From: a virus
Strand: one strand, 5' to 3'
Length of the DNA stretch: 39,677 nt
Virus record (IMG/VR): IMGVR_UViG_3300037502_001698
Span: 1 to 39,677 of that record
The translations under genes were made by a program, and so were the position numbers. Below are positions 5,098-39,558 of the stretch, piece after piece. Positions within the stretch are counted from its first letter, which is position 1. Every line of letters starts with the position of its first letter. Below the pieces are notes generated by a model. The model did not search any database. It was not told where the DNA came from and was given only the letters and a program-made list of their open reading frames with translations.

Positions 5098-5547
5098 ATG
5101 AATGGTCGTATCGCAATCTTCGGTTCACAGAACGGCAGCGAACTTGTCGCCCGTGTCCGATATCAGGAAGGGTATCGTGCGGTGCCTACCGATGTGGCTG
5201 ACCAGGCTGCCAAGATGACTGTCCCTGAGGCTGTCACGTTTATGGCAGAAATGTTTCCTGCTGCACGGTTCGTTGATTTGCTGCCAGCAAACGAATCGTT
5301 CTGCTGGGAGGACGCATATCTGGATGATGCACAGAACGGTATCGACCCGACAGATGGTGTGTACACTGTTGTGGCCGTGTCCCGCATTCAGCCTGCCGCC
5401 ACCGTCCGTGTCACTGTCCCTGGTGACAGTGTAGAAACGACACGACTCATGTTCGATGAGTCAGGTCAGTGGGAAACTGTGTCGTTCGAACGGCCAACCG
5501 CTGACGAGATGAGGGCATACAATGCCCGTTACTACACGAGGAAGTGA
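5098..5547 (+). CDS. Unknown phage protein (149 aa)
   Basis: ATG 5098 starts immediately after the TGA of the previous gene, so translation is probably coupled. The 149-residue product has an N-terminal strand-rich part, a central acidic segment (WEDAYLDDAQNGIDPTDGVY) and a C-terminal part rich in beta-branched residues. No motif is recognised. The next reading frame begins at the overlapping TGATG 5545-5549. Confidence 0.78.
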   Translation: MNGRIAIFGSQNGSELVARVRYQEGYRAVPTDVADQAAKMTVPEAVTFMAEMFPAARFVDLLPANESFCWEDAYLDDAQNGIDPTDGVYTVVAVSRIQPAATVRVTVPGDSVETTRLMFDESGQWETVSFERPTADEMRAYNARYYTRK

Positions 5548-6128: not shown

Positions 6129-6763
6129 AAACAGCCCCGTACTACCAGTTCACAAAGCCACGTGATTCTTACGGTTGTGCTGCACACAACGATGTTGAAT
6201 GTTTGTGTGATGTTGTGATCGGCACCCCTGTGCCGATCATGACTGAAGCCCCACATGCCTGGTTCCAAGCTGCGTTGGACGTGTTGGACCATGACATGGT
6301 GGATGCCCGCAACCTGCATGAAGTGATCAGTGTGACGTTCGGTTTGTGGACGTTGAATGATCTCATGTTTGGGCCTGGCAGGGACGAGCATCGTCCTGCT
6401 GGCCCCCAGTTGTGGCGTGACCTGCCTGAGGATGTCAGGTTGTCGTTGCGCTATCATTATCGGGTTGGTACACCGTGGGAGATTGCTGTTGTCGAATTGG
6501 AGGAAACAATTCTGACAGAAACAGAGATGGCCGCATTGCGGAAATACTATGTGGAACGGATGCGGACCTCAGCGTATGAGCGGAACAGTACGAAAGCTGC
6601 TGAACGGCAGCATCGCCGTCACCTCCAGTCGTCTGCGTGTGGTGTGGATACCTGCCAGTATTGTGGTGCCAAGTTTGAACCGTTCCGTAATAAGGTGGTG
6701 TGTTCATCACCGTGCCGTCAGGCGTTGTATCGTTTGCGTAGCCAGGAGGCCCGCCGTGGCTGA
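6125..6763 (+). CDS. Unknown protein with C-terminal zinc ribbon
   Basis: ATG 6125 overlaps the previous stop as ATGA. The 212-residue product has an unknown N-terminal domain. Its C-terminus has CQYCGAKFEPFRNKVVCSSPC (about residues 181-201), two CxxC/CxxxC pairs typical of a treble-clef or zinc ribbon, followed by QALYRLRSQEARRG. Such ends are often DNA- or RNA-binding. The last codons (EARRG-stop) are formed by a repeated junction sequence that also carries the ribosome site of the next gene (6744-6768). Confidence 0.78.
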   Translation: MKTAPYYQFTKPRDSYGCAAHNDVECLCDVVIGTPVPIMTEAPHAWFQAALDVLDHDMVDARNLHEVISVTFGLWTLNDLMFGPGRDEHRPAGPQLWRDLPEDVRLSLRYHYRVGTPWEIAVVELEETILTETEMAALRKYYVERMRTSAYERNSTKAAERQHRRHLQSSACGVDTCQYCGAKFEPFRNKVVCSSPCRQALYRLRSQEARRG

Positions 6764-6768
6764 CAACA
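6744..6768 (+). repeat. Repeated gene-junction sequence, copy 1
   Basis: GGAGGCCCGCCGTGGCTGA plus AC. It encodes EARRG-stop of the upstream gene in one frame and a ribosome site plus GTG GCT GAC start in another. Further copies lie at 7488-7508, 7756-7780 and 8142-8164. Confidence 0.75.
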
Positions 6769-6779
6769 AAGGAGAGACC

Positions 6780-7508
6780 ATGACAATCAAGATCCCTGAA
6801 GCCGACTTGCTTGAGCTGCTCGGCGAGAACGGCGAACACTGGATGCAAGGCGCGTGGTATGACGATGAGTCGATGTGCCTACACGGCGCAATCCGTCGCT
6901 GTTCACCGCAACCTGGCGACGCGTTCCTGATTGAACAGGTCGCTGCCCGACAGGGCTGGGGCACAGGGTGGAACGACGCTCACGACACCGATTGGAACAT
7001 GATCCGTCAACGGCTTGCCCATGTCGAGGTCACCGACGCCGATCTAGCTGACACGTTCGGGCCGCAATGGGAACATGTTGTGGCGCTGGTGCGTCGGGCA
7101 GCGGTGTTGACAGCAGACGAGGTTCAACAGTTGATCGCCGCTTGGGTCGCTGTTTGGGACGCCGCTCGGGTCGCTGTTTGGGTCGCCGCTCGGGACGCTG
7201 TTTGGGTCGCTGTTTGGGACGCCGCTCGGAACGACGCTCAGGACGCCGCTTGGGACGCCGCTCGTGTCGCCGCTTGGGTCGCTGTTTGGGACGCCGCTCG
7301 GTACGCCGCTCGGGACGCCGCTTGGGACGCCGCTCGGTACGCCGCTTGGGCTGCCGCTCGGGACGCCGCTCGGGCGCTCGTTGCGCGCGACCTGATCGGC
7401 CAGCACGGCTTCACCCAGGAGCATTACGACCTCCTGACCGACCCGTGGGTGAGCGTGATCGGACCCGTGCACCCTGACGATCACTCCGAGGAGGCCCGCC
7501 GTGGCTGA
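6780..7508 (+). CDS. Tetrapeptide-repeat (A-[AV]-[WR]-x) protein
   Basis: Numbered from ATG 6780 the product has 242 residues. Residues 120-199 are exactly 20 tandem tetrapeptides of form A-[AV]-[WR]-[D/V/Y/N], encoded by 20 x 12 bp at 7137-7376, with one unit altered (DAQD). The N-terminal 110 residues form a Trp-rich domain with [14 protein letters not shown], and a C-terminal tail of about 43 residues follows. Alanine-rich W/R repeats of this kind occur in many actinobacteriophage proteins of unknown role. Two starts have good ribosome sites: ATG 6780 (AAAGGAG) and in-frame GTG 6756 (GGAGG, within the repeated junction). The stop overlaps the next gene start. Confidence 0.78.
7137..7376 (+). 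repeat. 20 x 12-bp coding tandem repeat
   Basis: Units such as GCCGCTCGGGAC and GCTGTTTGGGTC repeat every 12 bp without a break for 240 bp. The reading frame is kept throughout. Variation is mainly GCC-GCT versus GCT-GTT and CGG versus TGG, which alternates Arg and Trp. Confidence 0.9.
7488..7508 (+). repeat. Repeated gene-junction sequence, copy 2
   Basis: GAGGAGGCCCGCCGTGGCTG followed by A. It ends the repeat protein (EEARRG-stop) and provides GGAGG plus GTG 7501 for the next gene. Confidence 0.75.
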
Positions 7509-7776
7509 AGAAAACATCATCGAAATATGCAGACGAGAAGCGCAAACATGGATCGACGTAGGTATCGGTGACGGCTGGCCGCTGACTCAAGCCGCCGACC
7601 TGCTCGAAGCCCAACAGGCCGAGATCGAACGGCTGCATGCCGAGCGTGCGTTGGCTGACAAGTTGGCAAGAGCTTTGCGCTCCGTGATCCACGACAAGCC
7701 AACCGCACACACGGATGAGGTGTGGCTGCGAATCCACAAGGCACTAGAAGCACATGAGGAGGCCCGCCGTGGCTGA
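7501..7776 (+). CDS. Coiled-coil protein (91 aa), paralogue of next gene
   Basis: GTG 7501 lies 6 bp after GGAGG in the repeated junction. The 91-residue product contains ADLLEAQQAEIERLHAERA (about residues 32-50), a heptad-type coiled coil. The next gene has the closely similar ADLIEAQHAEIERLRAEVE. Both end in EARRG or CRG made by the repeated junction. This indicates duplication of a gene together with its junction. Function is unknown; similar short coiled-coil proteins are frequent in actinobacteriophages. Confidence 0.75.
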   Translation: MAEENIIEICRREAQTWIDVGIGDGWPLTQAADLLEAQQAEIERLHAERALADKLARALRSVIHDKPTAHTDEVWLRIHKALEAHEEARRG

Positions 7777-7780
7777 CAAC
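7756..7780 (+). repeat. Repeated gene-junction sequence, copy 3
   Basis: Identical to copy 1 over GAGGCCCGCCGTGGCTGACA and its flanks. It provides GGAGG and GTG 7769. Confidence 0.75.
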
Positions 7781-8161
7781 CAGCATGTCAGCATCGGGTA
7801 TCTGCGTCATCTCGCGAGCATTGCGCCACACCCTGCAGACCGCCAACACTTCGCTTTGGTTGCCGACCTGATCGAAGCCCAACATGCCGAAATCGAACGG
7901 CTGCGTGCCGAAGTGGAGCGACTCACTCAACTGCACGAACGTATCGCCGCATCAGACGACGTGGCGAAGGCGTATCAGCAGGTGTACTTCGAGGACTTCC
8001 CTACCGTGAAGCAGGCTGTTGCCGAAACCCTGCTGGCAAAAGAACAACTCGCCGCCGAACGGGCCGAGATCGAACGGCTGCGTAAACACGTCAACCTGCG
8101 CACCGACGCAACCACCCCCATTTGCTCAGGAGAACGAGACAAGGAGGTCTGCCGTGGCTGA
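7769..8161 (+). CDS. Coiled-coil protein (130 aa), paralogue of previous gene
   Basis: GTG 7769 is chosen by analogy with the other junction starts; an upstream ATG at 7754 would read through the junction. The 130-residue product has two coiled-coil stretches, ADLIEAQHAEIERLRAEVE (about residues 32-50) and EQLAAERAEIERLRKHV (about 91-107), separated by a helical middle. The two stretches resemble each other and the coiled coil of the previous gene, so internal and whole-gene duplication are both likely. It ends KEVCRG-stop within junction copy 4. Confidence 0.75.
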   Translation: MADNQHVSIGYLRHLASIAPHPADRQHFALVADLIEAQHAEIERLRAEVERLTQLHERIAASDDVAKAYQQVYFEDFPTVKQAVAETLLAKEQLAAERAEIERLRKHVNLRTDATTPICSGERDKEVCRG

Positions 8162-8164
8162 CAC
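8142..8164 (+). repeat. Repeated gene-junction sequence, copy 4 (diverged)
   Basis: AGGAGGTCTGCCGTGGCTGA plus CAC. It differs from the others by GGCCC to GGTCT, but keeps GGAGG, the overlapping stop and GTG GCT GAC. Confidence 0.7.
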
Positions 8165-8300
8165 ATGGGACTATCAATGCCCGAAATGTAAACATGTGTA
8201 CCAGTCGCCACTGCCACTGCTAGAATGTCGACACAAATGCACACCAGCATCCCGTAGCGTAGAGATGCTGCCCGTCACAAAGGAACCCGATGAGGATTGA
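8154..8300 (+). CDS. Small zinc-finger protein (48 aa)
   Basis: GTG 8154 follows GGAGG in junction copy 4. The 48-residue product has CPKCKHVYQSPLPLLECRHKC near the N-terminus: two CxxC-type Cys, then C-x-H-x-C, a plausible zinc-binding knuckle. The stop overlaps the nuclease gene that begins at 8290. It may bind nucleic acid or the neighbouring nuclease; this is a guess from position. Confidence 0.65.
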   Translation: MADTWDYQCPKCKHVYQSPLPLLECRHKCTPASRSVEMLPVTKEPDED

Positions 8301-9168
8301 CGAGAACGGTGTACATCTACACCAATCTGATCTGAAAAACCATTGCCTAGAAAAACTGCGGTTGGAAACCGTGGCTGTTGGGCCACGGATAGAAAACGAT
8401 GCAGCCACCGTAGGCACCACACTGCACAGTGTGATCGAACATGAACTACGACACGGGCCATGTGACGATGAGGAAACCTGCTGTTCGCTGGCAGCAAACC
8501 TGTACCTAGAGTTACTTCAGCGATACCAGACAGAGGGACGTCCGTATGCGTTGTCATCGTTCGGGTCACATGACCGTGCCATCAGCCAACTGTTGGGTGT
8601 GACTCGTGCATGGTTCCGATCCAGTGAACGGCAACAGTTGCTGTCGGCATCTCAGCCACCGTTGATTGAATGGAACTTTGATCTACCATTCTGTGAAGTG
8701 GAAGTGAAGAAGTTTGGGAAGCGTGCCGAGATCATTCCTGTCTGGTTGGCTGGTACGGCTGACATTGTGATGCCGCATGCTGTGTGGGATTGGAAGACGG
8801 CTGGTTCTGAATACAGGCGTTGGGAATATCAGCGTTGGGGTAGGCAGCCTGACGTGTACACTTGGGCTGCATCCCAGGCAGGTTTGCTGCAACCTGATCC
8901 GACCACTGGTTTGTTTGTGTTCGAGTTCAAGGTGTTTGTGCGTGGCACAAACCCTGACATGGGCTGTCAAACCGTGAGTGTTGATCGGTCGCAGAACAAC
9001 TGGTCATGGTTGCAACAGATCGTTTCACGGCTGGTGAACTTTTCTTACAATATGGGTTTGGATCGTGAATGGCCGTTGGATGATCAGCACGTGTTGTGTT
9101 CTCCGAAGTGGTGTACGTTTTGGGATATGTGCAAAGGTTCCCAGGTGGATGGTGGGACATGGGTGTAA
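8290..9168 (+). CDS. PD-(D/E)XK nuclease with likely Fe-S cluster (Cas4/RecB-like)
   Basis: The product has 292 residues. Motifs in order: SDLKNHC with Cys19; TLHSVIEH with His46; GTADIV with Asp158; WDWKT with Asp167 and Lys169; QPDVY with Gln186 and Tyr190; and three C-terminal cysteines, Cys270, Cys275 and Cys281. One N-terminal and three C-terminal cysteines around a RecB nuclease core are characteristic of Cas4 and AddB-type Fe-S nucleases. Such enzymes degrade or resect DNA ends, and in phages they act in recombination or replication. ATG 8290 overlaps the previous gene; AAGGA lies just upstream. No CRISPR array is visible, so a role in adaptation is not suggested. Confidence 0.85.
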   Translation: MRIDENGVHLHQSDLKNHCLEKLRLETVAVGPRIENDAATVGTTLHSVIEHELRHGPCDDEETCCSLAANLYLELLQRYQTEGRPYALSSFGSHDRAISQLLGVTRAWFRSSERQQLLSASQPPLIEWNFDLPFCEVEVKKFGKRAEIIPVWLAGTADIVMPHAVWDWKTAGSEYRRWEYQRWGRQPDVYTWAASQAGLLQPDPTTGLFVFEFKVFVRGTNPDMGCQTVSVDRSQNNWSWLQQIVSRLVNFSYNMGLDREWPLDDQHVLCSPKWCTFWDMCKGSQVDGGTWV

Positions 9169-9188
9169 CATCTGCTAGAGTGGATGGC

Positions 9189-9521
9189 ATGAGAACACTT
9201 ACCAAGGAAGCGAAGGTGACCGTGAAGCAGCATGTGCCGATGTATGCAATCTACGGCCTTATGGATATCGACAAGTTCAAGAGGTTGAAGAAGCTGTATG
9301 AGCAGGCTGAGGAATGGGCTGTTGGTCGTGCCGATGATGCGCTGGGTGTCGAGTGGGCACAAGTAGAGGATATTGATTGGAAGCAATGGCAGTACCATTT
9401 TGAGGCGAACCGTGATGAACGGTTCAACTATCTGTGCCAGCGCAACGCCACCAAGGCAAGCTGGAACAGCCCGACCCGCAAGGGTGGCAAGACCACGATT
9501 ATCAAGCGAAAGGTGAAGTGA
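9189..9521 (+). CDS. Unknown basic protein (110 aa)
   Basis: The first clear start after the nuclease stop is ATG 9189; GTG 9180 in the same frame is possible. The ribosome site is weak. The 110-residue product has a helical N-terminal half and an aromatic segment, EDIDWKQWQYHFEAN. Its strongly basic C-terminus (TRKGGKTTIIKRKVK) suggests nucleic-acid binding. It lies between the nuclease and a gene I also cannot assign, in the replication region. Confidence 0.7.
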   Translation: MRTLTKEAKVTVKQHVPMYAIYGLMDIDKFKRLKKLYEQAEEWAVGRADDALGVEWAQVEDIDWKQWQYHFEANRDERFNYLCQRNATKASWNSPTRKGGKTTIIKRKVK

Positions 9522-9523
9522 CC

Positions 9524-10060
9524 ATGACCGACCAGATCACGAATGACCGTAAGATCAGTGTGTCGTTTTCCCGCAAGTTGTCGGACGGCAACTATGGGAC
9601 CATCGAAGCGACCGCATGGGTGCAAGGCGATGCCGCACCCGATGCCAGCCCTGGTGACATTTCCATCCTGCTCGCAGACCTGTTCAGCGCCGCCAAGGTC
9701 ACGGTGTTGGACCAGTTGGGTTGCGAATATGAGATGGATGCCGACAACGGAATCATCGTTGAGAAGGCCGCTCCTGCACCTACGACAGTCCAGTCTGCTG
9801 CCGCTGCTGTTGCACGTGCGATGCCTGGCACGACTGATGTTTCTGGTGGTGAGATTCGGGTGATGAATCCGAACGATCAGGATGGTCCTTTGCCTGGCTG
9901 GCTGGTCAATGCTTGTCAGCGTGACGGTGTGACGGCCGTGTGGGATAACCGTCGTGCTGCTGCTGGTACGAAGCAACCGCATTTCAAGGAGGCTGTGGCA
10001 CGGGGTGCCACGGGCCGTGGTAAGGATGGTCAGGCGAAGGGGTATTGGCCGCCCCGATGA
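9524..10060 (+). CDS. Unknown protein of the replication region (178 aa)
   Basis: ATG 9524 starts just after the previous stop; GAAAGG lies about 10 bp upstream. The N-terminal 80 residues (KISVSFSRKLSDGNYGTIEA, then an acidic helix ending in CEYEMDADNG) have a strand-strand-helix pattern seen in small phage proteins beside recombination genes. A flexible Ala/Pro stretch (residues about 85-105) leads to a C-terminal part rich in Gly, Arg and Lys. A single-strand DNA-binding or annealing role is conceivable from the position, but no OB-fold signature is clear. Confidence 0.75.
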   Translation: MTDQITNDRKISVSFSRKLSDGNYGTIEATAWVQGDAAPDASPGDISILLADLFSAAKVTVLDQLGCEYEMDADNGIIVEKAAPAPTTVQSAAAAVARAMPGTTDVSGGEIRVMNPNDQDGPLPGWLVNACQRDGVTAVWDNRRAAAGTKQPHFKEAVARGATGRGKDGQAKGYWPPR

Positions 10061-10401
10061 GCGACGAAACATTTATGGCAGAAACAACACCCGCTACGGT
10101 GAACGCTGACATCCATCTGGTCGCCAATCAGGATGATGGCGAAGTGCATTTCTGGCTGGTTGAACGGAACAACAGGTTTGAACTGTTCGTGTCTAGTGCA
10201 GATGGGCAGGGTATCCGTATGTGCGTGTTCGATGATGGTGTACCGTTCGATGTTGCTGCCAGTACACTGGTTGCGTTGATGCTGTCGTACCCTGTGGGTG
10301 GCAGTGAGCGTGGCATGGAACTGTTGGATGGCAACTTTGGTATCCCAACTGGTCCTGAACTGTTGATTCCCGACTTCAATATTGTGGAGGCATCCATCTA
10401 G
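10057..10401 (+). CDS. Unknown protein (114 aa)
   Basis: ATG 10057 overlaps the previous stop (ATGA). The 114-residue product looks beta-rich, with VHFWLVERNNRFELFVSSAD and an acidic C-terminus. No motif is recognised. Its stop overlaps the GTG start of the helicase (TAGTG at 10399-10403), so the two are likely co-translated. Confidence 0.72.
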   Translation: MSDETFMAETTPATVNADIHLVANQDDGEVHFWLVERNNRFELFVSSADGQGIRMCVFDDGVPFDVAASTLVALMLSYPVGGSERGMELLDGNFGIPTGPELLIPDFNIVEASI

Positions 10402-11483
10402 TGACCGATATCCTGGACAGGCTCGCAGAGTTTGAACAGGCCAACGTGTATGAACATTACCGTCCGCTGCGTAATGCAGCGGACGAGTTCATTACATGGG
10501 CCAAAAATGAGCAGGACCGTGTATACACGGGTGTGCGTGAGTTGGATGAGGCGATGCGTGGGACCGCCCCAGGAGAACTGACAATCATCCAAGGTTTCAC
10601 ACACTCGGGCAAGACTTTGTTGGTGACCGAGTTGATCCTGAATAATCCGCACACTCCGCTCGTGTTGTTCACCCCTGACGAGACACGGCCGCTGGTGTTG
10701 ACCAAGCTGACCAGTGCGTTGCATGGTGTTGGTGCCCGAGAACTTGAGGCACGTATCCGTGAGGATGACGATACCGCTACCAAACTGTTGATTGAAACCG
10801 CTGAACAGTATTCTAAGCTGGCAATCTTTGACGAGTCCATCAGTGTTGTTGATATGGATAACATGTTGGATGAGGTGCGTCATGCGATGGGCACACAACC
10901 GAAAGCGGTGATCTTTGATTACTGTGAACTGTTGGAGGGGCCTGATGATGTGAAGGCGAAGATGACTGCTCTCAAGGCGTGGGGGAAACGGCAGAAGGTT
11001 GCCATGTTCGTGTTGCACCAAACCAGCCGTACATCGGGTAGCGGTGGTCGCAAGGTTGGTATCGACTCGGGTGCGTTTGGTGGTGAGCAGCAGGCCACCC
11101 ATGTGATCGGTGTGCGTCGCAAAAAGTACATGCATATGGCGATGATGACGTTGCTGGAAGAAAAGATTTCGAACGCTACGAACCCGAAGTCAATTGAGGA
11201 ATACAAGTCACGTATCCGTCAGATTGAAACTGTTGACCTGCCCAGGGATATGGATACGGTTACGGTGTCGCTGGTGAAGAACAAGCGGCCACCGTGTGAT
11301 CTGGTGGACGATATCGACTACAAGATTGATTTGGGTACTGGTCGTGTGCGTCGTGTTGAGGATGTGAAGGACGAGTACGGGAATACGGTGCAGGTGCGGA
11401 AGGCGGCTGCGTTGGATTATCTACGTCAGCGTAAGCAGGCGCAGCATGTTGAGCAGGCGATTGCTGATCTGGAGGATTTCTGA
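10401..11483 (+). CDS. DnaB/RecA-fold replicative helicase-like ATPase
   Basis: The 360-residue product starts at GTG 10401. Walker A is GFTHSGKT (about residues 66-73). The Walker B-like strand is AVIFDYCEL (about 170-178), followed by VAMFVLHQTSR (about 200-210), the H4/Q region of DnaB-family helicases. Several basic residues toward the C-terminus could contact DNA. It lacks the DnaG-interacting N-terminal domain of bacterial DnaB, so it is closer to the short phage form. It sits directly before the primase gene, with stop/start overlap, consistent with a helicase-primase pair. Confidence 0.8.
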   Translation: MTDILDRLAEFEQANVYEHYRPLRNAADEFITWAKNEQDRVYTGVRELDEAMRGTAPGELTIIQGFTHSGKTLLVTELILNNPHTPLVLFTPDETRPLVLTKLTSALHGVGARELEARIREDDDTATKLLIETAEQYSKLAIFDESISVVDMDNMLDEVRHAMGTQPKAVIFDYCELLEGPDDVKAKMTALKAWGKRQKVAMFVLHQTSRTSGSGGRKVGIDSGAFGGEQQATHVIGVRRKKYMHMAMMTLLEEKISNATNPKSIEEYKSRIRQIETVDLPRDMDTVTVSLVKNKRPPCDLVDDIDYKIDLGTGRVRRVEDVKDEYGNTVQVRKAAALDYLRQRKQAQHVEQAIADLEDF

Positions 11484-12352
11484 TGAGCGTTGAACAATTC
11501 GCAAACCTGTTTATCGGCCGTGCAGACGCATACGGCACCGACACAGGCGGTGCCTGCTGGGCCCCTGTCACCCTCGCCACCTATGAACGACACCTGGACG
11601 GCATCGAACCCATCGGCATCTACCCTGTCGTGAACAACATGGTGCGTTGGGGCTGCTGCGACATTGACACAGGTGACTGGTCCGAAGCATTCATGTTGGC
11701 TACCGCCCTCCAGGGTATGGGCCTGGTGCCGTGGATTGAACGGTCACGTTCCAAGGGTTGGCATATCTGGGTGTTCGTTGACCAGTGGGTGTCTGCTGCT
11801 GATATGCGCCGCTGTTTGAAGGTGGCGTACAAGGCGATTGATCTACCAGCGAAAGAGGCGAACCCGAAATCAGAGAATCTGAGAGCGAACCAGTTGGGGA
11901 ACTATGTGCGTCTGCCGTATAAGGCTGCGAACGTGTTTGAATCGGAACGGCAAACGATGATGTGTTTATGGGATAAACATGGTGACGGTAAACCGTTACC
12001 GTTCCATGAGTTCATGGAACGTCAACCGTACAGCATGCCTAAAACGGTATCGTATTGGGCTTCGAAATGGTATGAGCCGCCCCGCAAATCCAGCCACATT
12101 GACACCGACCGTGACGTTGACAGGCTACAGTTGGCAGCGAAACTGCCCTACAGATGGCAGGACACCTGGCTGCACGGCAACGTGCGAGACAGATCAGCCA
12201 CGTTCGTAGCGATGGCCTATGATCTGGCGAAATGTGGTTGGCGTGCACAAGACGTGTACGATGTGCTATGGTCTTGCCCGTGGAACAAGTACCATGACCG
12301 TCGTGACGGTGAAGGGTACGTGAAAGACATCGTAGACAGGGTGTTCTCATGA
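11483..12352 (+). CDS. Archaeo-eukaryotic-type primase (primase-polymerase-like)
   Basis: The product has 289 residues. The metal-binding motif is WGCCDID (Asp60 and Asp62), and the second motif is SRSKGWHIWVF (Ser90, Gly92, His94), the SxGxH signature of the AEP superfamily. LGNYVRLPYK (about 138-147) fits the segment that follows. The C-terminal part is helical. AEP enzymes make primers and some extend DNA. Since I find no DNA polymerase in the window, this protein may be the phage's only nucleotidyl-polymerising enzyme. The 13-bp variant TTTATGGGATAAA at 11965-11977 lies inside the gene. Confidence 0.82.
   Translation: MSVEQFANLFIGRADAYGTDTGGACWAPVTLATYERHLDGIEPIGIYPVVNNMVRWGCCDIDTGDWSEAFMLATALQGMGLVPWIERSRSKGWHIWVFVDQWVSAADMRRCLKVAYKAIDLPAKEANPKSENLRANQLGNYVRLPYKAANVFESERQTMMCLWDKHGDGKPLPFHEFMERQPYSMPKTVSYWASKWYEPPRKSSHIDTDRDVDRLQLAAKLPYRWQDTWLHGNVRDRSATFVAMAYDLAKCGWRAQDVYDVLWSCPWNKYHDRRDGEGYVKDIVDRVFS
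11965..11977. promoter_or_regulatory. 13-bp operator-like variant inside the primase gene
   Basis: TTTATGGGATAAA, the same variant as at 143-155. It encodes part of CLWDKH and may be coincidental, but it is the only near-exact copy inside a long gene. Confidence 0.35.
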
Positions 12353-12672
12353 ACGATTATGGGGCAATGAGTTTCAATGAACTGACCGAACTGGTTGGTG
12401 ACATGAAGAAACAACTCGCCTATCTGGAACTGGTTGTTGCCGAACAGGCGGCAACCATCAAAGGTTACGATCAGAACGCTATCGTTCAAGCCTTGCTGGC
12501 AGATAACGCTGAACTAGAGGAACAGATTGTTGAGCTAGAAGATTTGTGTGAGAAACTGTACAACGGTCTCAAGCAGGCTGAAGCACAGTTAGATAGTTTG
12601 GGTGTTGGGCTACGAATGTTCGCACAGGATGCTGTGCGTGCGTTTGAAGAAATGTTTGAAGATGGAGATTGA
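12349..12672 (+). CDS. Coiled-coil protein (107 aa)
   Basis: ATG 12349 overlaps the primase stop. The 107-residue product is almost entirely helical and acidic, with heptad-like stretches in AYLELVVAEQAATIKG (about 24-39) and NAELEEQIVELEDLCEKLYNG (about 53-73). Coiled-coil proteins next to helicase and primase genes sometimes act as loaders or scaffolds. Nothing proves that here. Its end overlaps the resolvase gene by 11 bp. Confidence 0.72.
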   Translation: MNDYGAMSFNELTELVGDMKKQLAYLELVVAEQAATIKGYDQNAIVQALLADNAELEEQIVELEDLCEKLYNGLKQAEAQLDSLGVGLRMFAQDAVRAFEEMFEDGD

Positions 12673-13069
12673 TGTTTGGGTTCCTGTCAAACCGTTGGCG
12701 AAACAAAGGCCACGCCTTGCCCGTCGCCGTAAGGGTCGTGGAAATGTTGCGTATACGCCGCAGCCCACTCGAAATTTTGAAGCCGAAGTCGCAAACCATG
12801 TGCGACGTGAAATCGGTTGTCGTCCAATGTTTGGTGAACAACCCGTTTGTGTTAGAGTTGAAATCCACACCGACGGTTTTCACCTGCACATTTCGCACGC
12901 CGAAGCATCTGTACGTCCTAACGGTGTCCGTGGCGACATAGACAACATTGTGAAATCCATTTTCGACGGTTTGAACGGTGTTGCCTGGATGGATGATAAG
13001 CAGGTAGAGTCGTTGGAAGCAGTGTTTGTTGGGGTGCCCCGCAAGGGCACCACATATGAGGGTGACTGA
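12662..13069 (+). CDS. RusA-family Holliday junction resolvase
   Basis: The product has 135 residues from ATG 12662, within the end of the previous gene. The N-terminus WVPVKPLAKQRPRL is the RusA entry strand. The core motif RGDIDNIVKSIFDGLNGVAWMDDKQVE (about residues 91-117) carries the conserved Asp residues that bind magnesium. RusA enzymes cut four-way DNA junctions, which phages need to resolve branched replication and recombination products before packaging. It overlaps the next start (TGATG). Confidence 0.9.
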   Translation: MEIDVWVPVKPLAKQRPRLARRRKGRGNVAYTPQPTRNFEAEVANHVRREIGCRPMFGEQPVCVRVEIHTDGFHLHISHAEASVRPNGVRGDIDNIVKSIFDGLNGVAWMDDKQVESLEAVFVGVPRKGTTYEGD

Positions 13070-13290
13070 TGGCTATCGGTTCAGCCCCCGAAATCGGTTA
13101 CGAGTTCACCATGTGGGGTCGCATGGGTCATGATGCGCAGCGTGCATGGTGGCGGTATATGCGAACCTATTGGGTTGAACCAGGGAACCTGTATCAAGGT
13201 GAAGCCAGTGTCGTGTATCCTGATCCCGTGAAACGTGCCCAGTATTGTTCCGAAATTATGGAGGAAGTCAATGCACAGAACATTCAGTGA
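13069..13290 (+). CDS. Unknown small protein (73 aa)
   Basis: ATG 13069 overlaps the previous stop. The 73-residue product is rich in aromatic residues (AWWRYMRTYWVEPGNLY). No motif is recognised. Its end overlaps the next gene by 20 bp, where GAGGAAG forms the next ribosome site. Confidence 0.7.
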   Translation: MAIGSAPEIGYEFTMWGRMGHDAQRAWWRYMRTYWVEPGNLYQGEASVVYPDPVKRAQYCSEIMEEVNAQNIQ

Positions 13291-13795
13291 GAAACCGTTC
13301 AATGAACGGTACAAGTTGATGGGTGACACGGCGGAACATCGGTTTCAGGAATGGGCTGCAACAAACGGTATGCAATATGCTGTATATGGTTTGCGTCGGC
13401 CCAATATTCCTGTGTATTATTTACCACCGTTCGTAAGATATACACCAGATTTTGTGGTTCGTCACGGTTTGATGGAGGTGCAAGGTTGTGGTCGGGATCA
13501 GACAATCAAGTTGAAGCATGACAAATTGTGGGCGTTGAAAGAATGGAATAAATCTATTCCTGTCTACATGTGGCTGTGGAATCAAACTTGGGATCAGATT
13601 GGTGTCACAAATATGGATACTATTTTTGATCTTACTTTGGAAAGTGCTCGGACAGATGATCTTCGGATTGATGGTTTGTTTGATGGTGACAAACCGTATG
13701 CCAGTATTCGTTGGGACATGTTGATGGACCATCCAGGCACGTTTGGGAACTATCAAACATGGTCAATGTTCATCCGAAAGGATGAACGACCGTGA
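13271..13795 (+). CDS. PD-(D/E)XK-like protein, possible endonuclease
   Basis: ATG 13271 follows GAGGAAG; an upstream in-frame start at 13235 lacks a good site. The 174-residue product has HRFQEWAATNG, then VRYTPDFVVRHGLMEVQGCG (about residues 56-75), which resembles the PD...ExK core of restriction-like endonucleases with Gln in place of Lys. KLKHDKLWALKEWNKSIPVYMW follows, the usual helix and strand after the core. It lies two genes after RusA, so a role in recombination or DNA-end processing fits. The altered third catalytic residue makes activity uncertain. Confidence 0.6.
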   Translation: MHRTFSEKPFNERYKLMGDTAEHRFQEWAATNGMQYAVYGLRRPNIPVYYLPPFVRYTPDFVVRHGLMEVQGCGRDQTIKLKHDKLWALKEWNKSIPVYMWLWNQTWDQIGVTNMDTIFDLTLESARTDDLRIDGLFDGDKPYASIRWDMLMDHPGTFGNYQTWSMFIRKDERP

Positions 13796-14208
13796 AGTTC
13801 GGATATCGGGACAAAGTAGACCGAGCCGAAATCCCGTACTCCCCAGGCGACGCACCAGGATTCCACGACCCGTCACGACGCATGTACAGGCAGCATCACG
13901 TACCCGACAACGACTATCAGGCGTTGATGGAAACCATCCCAGGGGCCGATGTGCCGATGACCGCCCAAGAACGGGAAGCGGACTGGTTGCTGTTCCAAGA
14001 AAAACTGGAGGCGGCAGGATTGACGGAACGGGAACGTATCGTGGTTGACTGTGTGGTGATGGGGGGCATGTCACTGTCACAGACTGCTATTGTTGTTGCC
14101 CAGGCTGAAGGACTCAATAAGGCTCCAGCTAAAATGGTTGTCGCCCGATGCCGCGATCGGGCGTTAGAAAAGATTCGTAACGTGTTTACTTCTTGGGAGG
14201 ATCAGTGA
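13792..14208 (+). CDS. Sigma-region-4-like DNA-binding protein
   Basis: GTG 13792 overlaps the previous stop. The N-terminal half (residues 1-75) is basic, then acidic, with no motif. The C-terminal LTERERIVVDCVVMGGMSLSQTA...AKMVVARCRDRALEKIR (about 82-129) follows the helix-turn-helix pattern of sigma70 region 4: LTxREr, then a long helix-turn-helix, then a final RxRALxKIR. Phage proteins of this type can act as late-gene activators or as terminase-like DNA-binding proteins. No sigma region 2 is present, so it is not a complete sigma factor. Confidence 0.65.
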   Translation: MKFGYRDKVDRAEIPYSPGDAPGFHDPSRRMYRQHHVPDNDYQALMETIPGADVPMTAQEREADWLLFQEKLEAAGLTERERIVVDCVVMGGMSLSQTAIVVAQAEGLNKAPAKMVVARCRDRALEKIRNVFTSWEDQ

Positions 14209-35740: not shown

Positions 35741-37438
35741 TCACACAACAGGTGTCAAACGACGAGCCTTACCATTACGAGAATCCAACAAACGTTCATA
35801 CCACGCAAACGAACCCTTCACACGAGACGGATCACCATCCCCAAACACCTTCTCCGTCCTAGCATACTTGAGGCCCTGCACAGCCATACCCAACGACATC
35901 ACACAGTCATCATGCGGAGAACCCGACATACGGCCCCGCTGATCCCTCGTGAACGTCCTAAGCTCATGCAACGTCAACTTGTGAGGCACATTGCCAACAT
36001 CCCGCAACCAGGCTGCCAACTCGTCCACCAGCAAAGGTTTCGTAGTCGTAGTTGTCAACCAGCCCATCGACTCCAACGGGCGATCCACCCGTTTCGTCAA
36101 CGTGCGACGCTTAAACAAATTCTTGTACTTCACACGCTGCAAGGCTTTCAGGACAGTTAGCCCATGATTGTTCACCTCGGGAACAATCAGAGCGTTCCGA
36201 TAAAACCAGCCGATAGCAGGCAACACTGTTTCGCCAAACACGTCAGGCTCCACACGCCCATACCAGACCGCCACAGGCTGATTCGTGTTCACACACAAAA
36301 CCCAGGCGACCGTAGCGTCACCATGCTCCAACCCCTCAGCAATGTCTGCCCCAACCACATACGTCCACCTGTCCTGGTCGTTAGGTGCTTCAAAGATGAT
36401 GAACGGGCCACCTTCATACAGCATCACATCCGACGATTTCGAACCCGAAATCGTGTATGCCACACCCTCCTGAACCTGGAAACCCCTGAGCAATTCCTGA
36501 TTGAACACAGGGTTACCAGAACCGATAAAAGCCTCCACAGGATCATTCGGATACTCCTGATGAAGCTGCCACTCCTTACCAGACAGTTCAAACTTCTTCT
36601 GCTCATACCACTCCTGGCTGCGTGAATCCACCGCAGACCACGGAAAAAACACGCTGTTGAACCCGTTTGTTCCAGCCTCAGCTTTCAGCCACATCTCATG
36701 AAAAAACGTGCCCTCACCATTCGCTGTCGACAGACCGATCACCCGACCACCCAGATCGGTGGTCGGCTCCACTGATGCCCACGCTTCCTCAGGGTTCGGT
36801 AAAAACGCCCATTCGTCCAACACCACCAGAAACAGTGACTCACCACGAGCAGGATCATTATTAGACGGCAGCGACTGAATGATCGAATCGTTATCCAACG
36901 TCATCACCTGACGGGTACGATCCAACAATTTCGGGCCACGCAACCGCACCCACTCAGGCATCGACCTGAAATTATATCTTGTCTTAGCCAACAGCGACAC
37001 CGACTCACGCTCGGTGCGTGACAGCATCACAATATGCCTGTCACGCCACCCAAACGCACACCACAAAGTAAACGCCGCAACCAACGTAGAAAACCCGATC
37101 TGACGGGCCTTGAGACAAATGTTGCGACGATACTTGATCCAATCATACGCCACCTGAGACTGGGCATCCCGCAGCTTCAGCGGGATGCGACCAACACCAG
37201 GAAACTTGATACTCAGGTTATCTTCACAAAACTGGACAAACCCAGCATGCAACACAGCCACCACATCGTCAGGAAGTTCCTGCAACGTCCAATCCACATC
37301 GACCTGAGGAAACCAAGTTTTCCACTTGATCTCCTGCTCAATCTCCGTGATATCCCACGTCACCTTCTCACGACGAGCCTTCTTAATCTGATTCGCCGTC
37401 TGCTGCACCTGATGAACAATATTACGATTCGGAGGCAT
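35741..37438 (-). CDS. terL: Large terminase subunit
   Basis: ATG 37438, numbered to 565 residues; it overlaps the small subunit by 17 bp. Walker A is CLKARQIGFST (about 108-118) and Walker B FLVVLDEW (about 203-210), followed by the coupling motif GLSTANG (235-241). The nuclease domain follows with VVGADIAEG (acidic residue), VPEVNNHG and SPHDDCV, the Asp/Glu triad of the RNase H-like terminase nuclease. It pumps DNA into the capsid and cuts it. This is the most confident identification in the late arm. Confidence 0.94.
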   Translation of the reverse strand: MPPNRNIVHQVQQTANQIKKARREKVTWDITEIEQEIKWKTWFPQVDVDWTLQELPDDVVAVLHAGFVQFCEDNLSIKFPGVGRIPLKLRDAQSQVAYDWIKYRRNICLKARQIGFSTLVAAFTLWCAFGWRDRHIVMLSRTERESVSLLAKTRYNFRSMPEWVRLRGPKLLDRTRQVMTLDNDSIIQSLPSNNDPARGESLFLVVLDEWAFLPNPEEAWASVEPTTDLGGRVIGLSTANGEGTFFHEMWLKAEAGTNGFNSVFFPWSAVDSRSQEWYEQKKFELSGKEWQLHQEYPNDPVEAFIGSGNPVFNQELLRGFQVQEGVAYTISGSKSSDVMLYEGGPFIIFEAPNDQDRWTYVVGADIAEGLEHGDATVAWVLCVNTNQPVAVWYGRVEPDVFGETVLPAIGWFYRNALIVPEVNNHGLTVLKALQRVKYKNLFKRRTLTKRVDRPLESMGWLTTTTTKPLLVDELAAWLRDVGNVPHKLTLHELRTFTRDQRGRMSGSPHDDCVMSLGMAVQGLKYARTEKVFGDGDPSRVKGSFAWYERLLDSRNGKARRLTPVV

Positions 37439-37946
37439 GCTGAGTAGCCCTCTTAGCAATCTCAATCGCAGCAGCCTCAGCCCGCTCAGCCAACGCCAAC
37501 TCCCTCACCCGCTGCAACTCCTCCAACGACAAATCAGCAATAGTCTCCTGCTCAAGTTCATCCGCCACCTCAAGAATGTCAGGAGACCGACCAAACTGAC
37601 CCATCACACCAGTCCCCTTCATCCAAATCTCAGCAAACCGAACATCCTTCTTCGCCAACGCCTGCTCAAACACCATATCCAAAATCTGGCGCACCCTGTC
37701 AGGAGAACTGGCGTTTTGCAACGTACAAAACCTGATCGCCTCAACCACCCGAGGATCACGAGACCACTTATACATCGCCTGCTGAGTCACTCCAAGAACC
37801 TCCTGAAGTTCCCGCTCAGTCTTAATTTCACGCTCCGCAGGAGGCGTCGCCTTCCACACCACATACGCCCGTTGACGGGCGTTCAACTCACGACGCTTCT
37901 GCGCCTGCTGTTCGTTTGTCGGACGACCACCTTTATTCACTGGCAT
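37422..37946 (-). CDS. terS: Small terminase subunit
   Basis: ATG 37946 with GAGGTGG 4-10 bp upstream. The 174-residue product has a basic N-terminus (NKGGRPTNEQQAQKRREL), a helix-turn-helix KTERELQEVLGVTQQAMYKWSRDP (about 42-65), and a long acidic coiled-coil C-terminus (LEQETIADLSLEELQRVREL). It should recognise phage DNA and present it to the large subunit. It is the first gene of the leftward unit, just below the repeat-rich control region. Confidence 0.88.
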   Translation of the reverse strand: MPVNKGGRPTNEQQAQKRRELNARQRAYVVWKATPPAEREIKTERELQEVLGVTQQAMYKWSRDPRVVEAIRFCTLQNASSPDRVRQILDMVFEQALAKKDVRFAEIWMKGTGVMGQFGRSPDILEVADELEQETIADLSLEELQRVRELALAERAEAAAIEIAKRATQHASES

Positions 37947-38025
37947 TCATACCACCTCACAAAACCCCGAGAACCGTAACAACCATAAACGGAGAGGGGG
38001 CGGCCGCAACGGGGGGAGAGGACAA

Positions 38026-38052
38026 AGCTAATGCACAAAAACAGCATTAGCT
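38026..38052. other. 9-bp hairpin in late leader
   Basis: AGCTAATGC and GCATTAGCT are perfectly complementary around 9 nt. The motif AGCTAA is also present at 38268-38278 (AGCTAATAGCT) and in the 4.2-4.3 kb leader. It lies 80-106 bp upstream of the small terminase start. Confidence 0.6.
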
Positions 38053-38175
38053 AAAGCATAAAAACGGTACTGACACAGACACGCCCGAAGCGAAAGCGAA
38101 GGGCGAAAGACGTCACCAAACAAACAAACCAAAAACAAAAAAAGCTTGTGCGTCCGCCAGGACAGCACAAACCCT

Positions 38176-38221
38176 TTCCAAACCAGAGGCAGTTAACATT
38201 CCAAACCAGAGCTACATATGA
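38176..38221. repeat. 23-bp repeat family A (2 copies)
   Basis: TTCCAAACCAGAG occurs at 38176 and 38199, exactly 23 bp apart. Confidence 0.8.
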
Positions 38222-38250
38222 TGGCCTCTCATCTACAATCGAGGCCATCA
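38219..38250. other. 10-bp hairpin in the control region
   Basis: TGATGGCCTC and GAGGCCATCA are perfectly complementary around 12 nt. No U-run follows on either strand, so it may be a binding site or mRNA structure rather than a terminator. Confidence 0.6.
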
Positions 38251-38386
38251 ACCAATAAGCTAATAGCTACATACATAGCCACCCCCCGTAACACCCCACC
38301 AAAAACCAAAAACATGCATCTACCAGGCATGATGTCAAAAACCACTACAACCATGTGACAACAAACACACCCCAAAACACAAGAAA

Positions 38387-38478
38387 AGTACAAACATACC
38401 ATACCAGCTAGTACAAATGCACTAGAAGAATCAGTACAAACATACTACACCGATAAGTACCGAACCACACAAAGAATC
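38387..38478. repeat. 23-bp iteron family B (4 copies)
   Basis: AGTAC starts at 38387, 38410, 38433 and 38456, each exactly 23 bp apart. Copies 1 and 3 share AGTACAAACATAC. Copies 2 and 4 both end AAGAATC, so there is a 46-bp higher-order repeat. Confidence 0.85.
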
Positions 38479-38518
38479 ATATAGCGCAACATGGGGGTAG
38501 GGGGCCGTATACCCACCC

Positions 38519-38587
38519 TCCCAACCCCTGTTAGGGTGACTTACCATCGACCGTTAAGCCAGCCTACCATCCGATGTTAGGCCAGCC
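38519..38587. repeat. 23-bp iteron family C (2 clear copies, 1 degenerate)
   Basis: TACCATC...TTA(A/G)GCCAGCC occurs at 38542 and 38565, exactly 23 bp apart. A degenerate copy begins at 38519 with TGTTAGG in the same phase. The last copy overlaps the inverted repeat TGTTAGGC-CA-GCCTAACA (38575-38592). Confidence 0.75.
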
Positions 38588-38610
38588 TAACAGTTGTGGG
38601 CACGATGTTT

Positions 38611-38655
38611 GCGCCCGCAATAGTTGCGCCCGCAACCATTGCCCTCGCAATAGTT
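38611..38655. repeat. 15-bp tandem repeat (3 copies)
   Basis: GCGCCCGCAATAGTT, GCGCCCGCAACCATT and GCCCTCGCAATAGTT lie head to tail. Copies differ at two to four positions. Confidence 0.85.
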
Positions 38656-38701
38656 GCACACTACAAGTATCGGGGGAGCGGGGGACCGTGGGCACGGATG
38701 C

Positions 38702-38722
38702 GGGGCAGGGTGCGGGGCAGGG
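38702..38722 (+). other. G-quadruplex motif
   Basis: GGGG-CA-GGG-TGC-GGGG-CA-GGG fits the strict quadruplex rule with loops of 2, 3 and 2. It consists of two 12-bp CGGGGCAGGGTG units. Longer G runs at 38672-38692 precede it. Confidence 0.65.
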
Positions 38723-38840
38723 TGTCCGCCTGGTGTGAACGCTGTGTGTGGTGGTCAACCACTCTGAGTCATAACACCTGGTCAGAGGCTATTTCTGGAC
38801 CCCTGTCGCCCAGCTGAGAGAAAGAGGTTACTAGGCGCGT

Positions 38841-38858
38841 CTAGTGCATGTGCACTAG
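38841..38858. promoter_or_regulatory. 18-bp inverted repeat near the HTH gene
   Basis: CTAGTGCA-TG-TGCACTAG has perfect 8-bp arms. Related TGCACTAG occurs at 38418-38425 and CTAGTG at 38873-38878. It is a candidate operator for the HTH gene 125 bp downstream. Confidence 0.55.
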
Positions 38859-38888
38859 GTGGTCTAGTGTGTTTGCGTCTTTGGGTCG

Positions 38889-38901
38889 TTTATGCCATAA
38901 A
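38889..38901. promoter_or_regulatory. 13-bp operator upstream of the HTH gene
   Basis: TTTATGCCATAAA, exact match, 82 bp before ATG 38983. With the copy at 39564 it brackets the gene. Confidence 0.75.
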
Positions 38902-38942
38902 GGGCTGGACGCTTTCGCGGCGCAGGGTGTAGCGTCATGGGT

Positions 38943-38959
38943 GGCGGAACGGTTCCGCC
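38943..38959. promoter_or_regulatory. 17-bp palindrome in the HTH gene leader
   Basis: GGCGGAAC-G-GTTCCGCC, perfect 8-bp arms with a 1-bp centre, ending 23 bp before ATG 38983. It may be an autoregulatory operator or an mRNA hairpin. Confidence 0.5.
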
Positions 38960-38982: not shown

Positions 38983-39558
38983 ATGACTACCTACACGATT
39001 CCCACCACGGTTGCCGAGCTGGTCGCCACTAGCGCACGGTTGCGCAAGTCCGCCACGAAGGCCAGCAAGCTGGAAGCCATCCACCAACTGTGCTCGTGGG
39101 TCGCATGGCGCGCCAACGCCATTGCGGACATGCCGGCGGATCGCACGCAAGCCGAGCTGGCTGACTACCTGGGCGTCTCGGGTCCTCAGATGTCTAAGGT
39201 TGGCGGGGTCGCCAAGTGCGCTCATGATGTGATCGTTGATACGATCGGTTCGGCTATCGCGGCACACGTGGACACGTTCGACGCCACCGAGGTCGTTGCC
39301 AGCGTGACGGAGGCAATCGACGCGATCAATCAGCGTGCACAGGGTGACGAGACCTGGACCGAGGCGGGCAAGGAGCGCCCGTGCGTGTCGGTCGATTACA
39401 TGTACAAGTACCTTGGTCTGGGCAAGTCTGGCGGAGAGTCGACGTATGCCGCCAAGCTCCGCAAGGCGGCGCAGCAGGCGCAGGCGGAGAACGTCAGCGA
39501 GGCTGACTTCATCGCCGCCGCCCGCCAGGCATGGGAGGACATGAGGTCCGCCAGCTGA
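38983..39558 (+). CDS. Helix-turn-helix DNA-binding protein, candidate regulator
   Basis: ATG 38983 with GAAAGG about 9 bp upstream. The 191-residue product has RTQAELADYLGVSGPQMSKVG (about 53-73), a clear helix-turn-helix. The flanking N-terminal helices and an acidic C-terminal half (about 85-190) may dimerise or bind a partner. It is the only gene beside the iteron block, and 13-bp palindromes lie on both sides. A role as repressor of the palindrome network, or as origin-binding protein for the iterons, fits the context. It is not a recognisable ParB or Rep. Codon use is G/C-rich compared with the early arm. Confidence 0.75.
   Translation: MTTYTIPTTVAELVATSARLRKSATKASKLEAIHQLCSWVAWRANAIADMPADRTQAELADYLGVSGPQMSKVGGVAKCAHDVIVDTIGSAIAAHVDTFDATEVVASVTEAIDAINQRAQGDETWTEAGKERPCVSVDYMYKYLGLGKSGGESTYAAKLRKAAQQAQAENVSEADFIAAARQAWEDMRSAS

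Follow-up and report, generated by a model that had tools for sequence, protein, structure and literature searches.

Tandem 23-bp repeats at the divergence point of the gene arms in an uncultured freshwater actinophage: candidate regulator sites in a probable central control region

Introduction

Why should repeats that differ in sequence share one exact period at a single place in a phage genome? The question is raised by a viral contig of 39,677 bases, analyzed here over its whole length and called the window. An earlier note, made from the sequence alone, had described three unrelated repeat families in it, TTCCAAACCAGAG, AGTAC and TACCATC...GCCAGCC, each recurring at 23 bp. It had proposed that related proteins read them, or that they lie on one face of the DNA, at an origin or partition site. 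All the quoted repeats are found where the note had placed them. We asked how far the period extends, which of the repeats are kept in relatives, and what kind of site they most resemble.

Results

Genome organization and relatives

The two ends of the contig (1-31 and 39647-39677) overlap by 31 bases with 1 mismatch, so the map is probably complete and circular. The late genes occupy the right-hand arm on the minus strand and include a portal protein and a large terminase of the T4 type. The early genes occupy the left-hand arm on the plus strand and include DnaB-like helicase, primase-type, RusA and PD-(D/E)XK genes. An Xp10 P7-like antiterminator was considered for the ORF at 5098-5547, where the match was not significant (E 0.055). 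As the earlier note had said, the arms diverge at about 38.0-39.0 kb, and this is the sole such point in the window. It is flanked by the following genes:

35741-37465, minus strand: terminase large subunit
37422-37946, minus strand: terminase small subunit, first late gene (weak PHROG hit)
38983-39558, plus strand: first ORF of the plus arm, 191 aa, an orphan with a sub-threshold match to a MarR-type HTH

The last of these is the ORF nearest to the repeats; its match to MarR_2 (E 0.002) is below the cut-off, and a search for relatives of its protein found none. We fetched 61 related terminase loci. The best named relative is MW202803 (Podoviridae sp. ct52p938), with a TerL 61% identical, and the closest relative is L004, with a TerL 99% identical and region DNA about 76% identical. 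The virus is likely a member of an uncultured freshwater actinophage family with actinobacterial hosts. An Rfam scan of the window gave no match.

The 23-bp period is real and limited to the divergence locus

A simple autocorrelation of positions 37950-38950 has its two highest peaks at lag 46 (z 4.5) and lag 23 (z 3.7). A local-segment test found five separate lag-23 segments with a score of at least 9 between 37.95 and 38.95 kb (38026, 38176, 38387, 38521 and 38839), versus two for the best competing lag in the range 11-120. The maximum over these lags reached four once in 1000 locally composition-matched shuffles, and five never, which bears out the shared period. When the whole window was scanned at lags of 11-60 that are not multiples of 3 (the codon period), nine segments scored at least 13, four of them at lag 23 and two at lag 46, and these six all lie within 38.0-38.6 kb. 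Two of the lag-23 pairs (38026-38042/38049-38065 and 38839-38853/38862-38876) had not been described before. The arrays and boxes of the region are:

38026-38065, minus strand: lag-23 pair GTTTTTATGCTTTAGCT / GTTTTTGTGCATTAGCT of the late leader, with 15 of 17 positions the same; L004 has one copy
38176-38211, minus strand: lag-23 pair of two CTCTGGTTTGGAA copies (the TTCCAAACCAGAG repeat, at 38176 and 38199)
38387-38478, plus strand: AGTAC array, four 23-bp units (38387, 38410, 38433, 38456), over the presumed late start and early leader
38408-38425: full palindrome CTAGTACAAATGCACTAG (G-box), the second AGTAC unit
38519-38587, plus strand: TACCATC...GCCAGCC array, three 23-bp units (38519, degenerate; 38542; 38565)
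38576-38591: iron-box-like palindrome GTTAGGCCAGCCTAAC, the sole exact copy in the window
38609-38657: TTGCGNNCGCAA palindromes with a 15-bp period, the most widespread box type among relatives
38841-38858: a further G-box, CTAGTGCATGTGCACTAG, toward the early side, followed at a distance of 23 bp by a CTAGTG half-site

If one helical turn takes 10.5 bp, 23 bp make 2.19 turns. Each site is then rotated by about 69 degrees relative to the one before it, and the sites do not look toward a common face of the DNA, contrary to what had been supposed. For generic palindromes the enrichment at the locus is no more than modest (15 versus 4.4 expected with 7-nt arms; 3 versus 2.0 with 8-nt arms), and the argument thus rests on the specific boxes.

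The window has other repeats as well. The palindrome TTTATGNNATAAA occurs at 16 sites, of which 13 are exact on one strand or both, versus about 0.2 expected: 143, 258, 325, 360, 833, 1124, 1691, 1936, 3080, 4304, 5239, 10072, 11965, 15703, 38889 and 39564. All lie in the plus arm and none in the late arm, resembling a dispersed operator set. A 12/24/36-bp tandem repeat with CGCCGCTCGGGA units is found at 7135-7374, inside the ORF at 6549-7508.

Two types of palindromic box

The AGTAC array starts at a conserved GGTACTT and runs into the leader; its fourth unit is the family-conserved AAGTACCGAACC. Degenerate half boxes lie 23 bp on either side of CTAGTACAAATGCACTAG, at 38385 and 38431. This G-box is of the type CTAGTRCA-N2-TGYACTAG, and both sides of the divergence carry a copy. 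The palindrome occurs once each in the relatives L076, L079 and L080. We also noted an unrelated phage contig of 64% GC, L262, which carries 12 exact CTAGTGCA-N2-TGCACTAG G-box palindromes over 7 kb (7090-14144), a pattern reminiscent of dispersed operators. The idea that the G-box belongs to a host regulator was rejected: none of 298 genomes from a single actinobacterial order, that of one of the hosts, has it, nor does any of 7 others, a sample outside which the true host may fall. Its occurrence in phages and its absence from the 298 host-order genomes suggest that the divergence is flanked on each side by a site for a phage-type regulator. Among the titles and abstracts listed by a literature search for the G-box sequence, none was relevant.

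The second array is built on a box of the GTTAGG-N4-CCTAAC type. Besides the exact copy of GTTAGGCCAGCCTAAC, degenerate copies lie in 23-bp steps at 38553-38568 and 38530-38545, so that two of the three units in the window are degenerate. Exact copies of TTAGG-N4-CCTAA number one in the window (38576), two in L004 and one each in L005, L006 and MW202803, where the single GTTAGG-N4-CCTAAC box lies upstream of the conserved core described below. Other viral loci found by pattern have box pairs 15-34 bp apart. Among 84,980 genomes, 74 loci carry GTTAGG-N4-CCTAAC pairs, mostly in Actinomycetota. A spacing of 20-24 prevails in freshwater-type actinobacteria, mostly Acidimicrobiia, and a spacing of 15 in Actinomadura, where ribosomal protein S4 and a DUF2470 protein are among the neighbors. 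At nine actinobacterial loci that were inspected, most of them from freshwater Acidimicrobiia, the box neighbors an Fe3+-type ABC binding protein, an assignment that here goes only to the SBP family, and a box pair in Aurantimicrobium (spacing 15) adjoins an FTR1 iron permease. Some neighbors are not iron-uptake genes (dihydroxy-acid dehydratase, chorismate synthase, ribosomal protein S4). A DtxR-type protein is present in all 12 of the box-carrying genomes tested, and the published DtxR consensus TTAGGTTAGCCTAACCTAA contains TTAGG-N4-CCTAA (PMC7762939, PMC11481915). The window box fits only the first 14-15 positions of the full 19-bp consensus. Given the iron-gene neighbors, the DtxR-type proteins and the consensus, an iron-regulator box is the best reading, and the array at 38519-38591 is probably of the DtxR/IdeR type, a candidate site for a host regulator.

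The earlier idea that related proteins read all the arrays is not upheld: neither the sequence nor the symmetry of the sites is shared, and one array resembles a host iron-regulator box.

A conserved core and the late leader

The locus has these further elements:

38455-38512, minus strand: family-conserved core, with GTATAC (38507-38512), 30 nt, TATGATTC (38474-38481) and GGTTCGGTACTT (38455-38466)
37947-38470, minus strand: late-operon leader, G+T-rich and strongly folded (z -3.3), with hairpins
38078-38105, minus strand: family-conserved leader hairpin CGCCCTTCGCTTTCGCTTCGGGCGTGTC

In 17 relatives the minus strand has GTATAC or a close variant, then TATGAT/TATGGT, then a GGTTCGGTACTT-like stretch, and the distance from TATAC to TATGAT/TATGGT is exactly 30 nt in most of them. 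A scan of viral contigs with the strict core pattern matched the nearest relatives only. The core carries TATGAT without a sigma-70 -35 element, and a sigma-70 promoter scan did not call it. On crossing it the G+T skew goes, on average over 15 phages, from -0.29 to +0.51, and it flips in every one of them. The change of base skew pointed out earlier is real and is located at the TATGATTC core near 38.48 kb. The core is presumed to be the late promoter or late transcription start; an origin would look identical.

The hairpin CGCCCTTCGCTTTCGCTTCGGGCGTGTC hardly varies among nine relatives; in L005 a change in one arm is matched in the other (CCCCC/GGGGG). It is followed by a C-rich block and is possibly an RNA antitermination or packaging element. 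Another hairpin of the late leader, terminator-like, is adjoined on its upstream side by the CTCTGGTTTGGAA pair.

An origin at the locus?

The cumulative GC-skew minimum was located in the window and six other phages. Its distance from the core is about 25 bp or less in G013, G003, G026 and MW202803, 190 bp in the window and 182 bp in G012; the G019 contig is cut near the locus. A skew minimum at the site, as expected of a replication origin, is thus found, but it is confounded with gene orientation, since every gene is oriented outward from the locus and the skew changes sign where late transcription is presumed to begin. In addition, the densest DnaA-box cluster of the contig falls at this locus in G019 (8 boxes in about 170 bp), MW202803 (5), G013 (4) and G016 (4; the same phage as L008). 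These clusters make the origin proposed by the earlier note plausible. The companion suggestion of a partition site is not supported by the window proteins scanned (part of its ORFs), none of which is of the ParA/ParB type.

The window's own locus has no DnaA boxes, and an origin here would need another initiator, for which the AGTAC array is a candidate site. This array could then be a set of replication iterons, an initiator binding the four 23-bp units and opening the adjoining AT-rich stretch in place of the relatives' DnaA boxes. Plasmid iterons are usually of a size that includes 23 bp. This, the DnaA clusters, the skew minimum at or near the core, the growth of the array by whole units and the 100 bp after the core, AT-rich in most relatives and next to a GC-rich block, are consistent with such a role. 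A divergent promoter, however, predicts the skew and the AT-richness equally well, and a true palindrome that recurs singly elsewhere typifies operators rather than directional iterons. No initiator gene was found, and at this locus several relatives lack both a DnaA cluster and 23-bp iterons. We regard iterons as unlikely, although they are the strongest of the alternatives to operators.

Exact LexA-type boxes are also concentrated at the locus in G019, G013 and G016. In the same region L008 has five LexA-type boxes at 2459-2543, partly in 15-bp steps, L118 has LexA-type boxes together with a DnaA-box cluster at 1790-2215, and L119 has a Fur-like box at 2210.

Spacing is kept while spacers change

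The three repeat families all have the 23-bp period but are not of equal standing, as the TTCCAAACCAGAG pair is not kept in L004 and the AGTAC and TTAGG (TACCATC) arrays are the only ones of these that persist there. Each differs from its counterpart by about one 23-bp unit (about 22-23 bp for the AGTAC array; a 23-bp indel for the TTAGG array). A TTGCG array differs by 15 bp, and the array size differences overall amount to whole units.

Such differences would also be expected if the period were a mutational signature, left by short tandem duplications of similar size in fast-evolving noncoding DNA, with some copies functional. Two of the five lag-23 pairs, which lack palindromes, are absent or single-copy in L004, and the indels between the two phages are whole units, as this explanation would have it. 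Nevertheless, both conserved arrays match in the box only and differ in their spacers, and TTAGG arrays at exactly 23 bp are found in L004, L005 and L006 with different spacer sequences. Maintenance of 23 bp with different spacers points to selection on the spacing and makes a purely mutational origin rather improbable. Other relatives have repeats of 11, 15, 21 or 22 bp in the same place rather than 23, which also speaks against a mutational signature. As boxes in other phages and in hosts are spaced by 15-44 bp, 23 bp is not obligatory but one solution among several.

Packaging sites are often located upstream of the small-subunit gene. The arrays lie about 0.5 kb upstream of it, but that they are small-subunit binding sites of a cos/pac site is very improbable, because the DNA-binding region of the subunit is similar across relatives while the AGTAC array is missing in L005, L006 and L013, and because the invariant core and leader hairpin are better candidates. 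Shared contig ends were considered separately as cos evidence. L015 ends at GGTTCCGTAC, but the flank that it lacks there is not present at its opposite end, and contig ends thus gave no sign of a common physical end.

Discussion

From the 23-bp period and its confinement, the gain and loss of whole units, the TTAGG arrays that have this period in three relatives, the host context and the core, we infer tandem sites for dimeric regulators in a central control region for divergent early and late transcription, probably together with an origin. We give this explanation an even chance of being right; it takes in protein binding, the identities of the proteins, cooperativity, repression and the promoter assignment, all of which we infer. 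Each site would be a palindrome of about 16-18 bp which, with a linker of 5-7 bp, would place adjacent dimers about 23 bp apart. This spacing would let neighboring dimers bind cooperatively, and is of the same order as in the lambda repressor operators. For the array at 38519-38591 the most likely binding protein would be a DtxR/IdeR-type iron-dependent repressor of the host, and for that at 38385-38478 a phage-type regulator, which would hold late transcription down until needed. The TTAGG array is on the upstream side of the presumed -10, where it would not obviously occlude the late RNA polymerase. The leader pairs at 38026 and 38176 have no such palindromic sites, and the tandem-operator model leaves both unexplained.

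More tentatively, the phage family may gather operators of host stress regulators (DtxR/IdeR, LexA, Fur-like) beside its own sites, and so link replication or late expression to the iron and DNA-damage state of the host, or titrate the regulators; we consider this possible but somewhat doubtful. If the arrays are what they appear to be, sites of a host iron sensor, joined in relatives by SOS and DnaA sites, would stand where replication and late expression probably start, a compact and testable case of a virus sensing host physiology through borrowed operators, and the origin and late promoter of these phages could be located from sequence.

Comparison with known systems

Like iteron and DnaA-box origins, the locus has tandem repeats that are as large as initiator sites and coincide with a skew minimum, and its phage relatives have DnaA-box clusters there; the window differs in having neither DnaA boxes nor a known initiator. 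MW202803 shares the arm layout and the TATGATTC core, and differs in having a DnaA-box cluster and no 23-bp arrays.

With DtxR/IdeR iron boxes the locus shares the TTAGG-N4-CCTAA core, the pairing of boxes and the likely actinobacterial host. The DtxR box differs in being a 19-bp palindrome with another center, and the phage copy stands in a control region and not at an iron gene. A phage precedent is the DtxR-regulated toxin operator of diphtheria phage, which concerns one gene.

The lambda OR and OL regions have short palindromic operators about 23-24 bp apart from center to center, at two divergent control points. The window likewise has repeated short palindromes at a constant and similar spacing, in a divergent phage control region with putative divergent promoters. 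No CI-like repressor was found, nor lysogeny genes among the window proteins scanned. The sequences differ from those of lambda, and the window adds a second array, of another site type.
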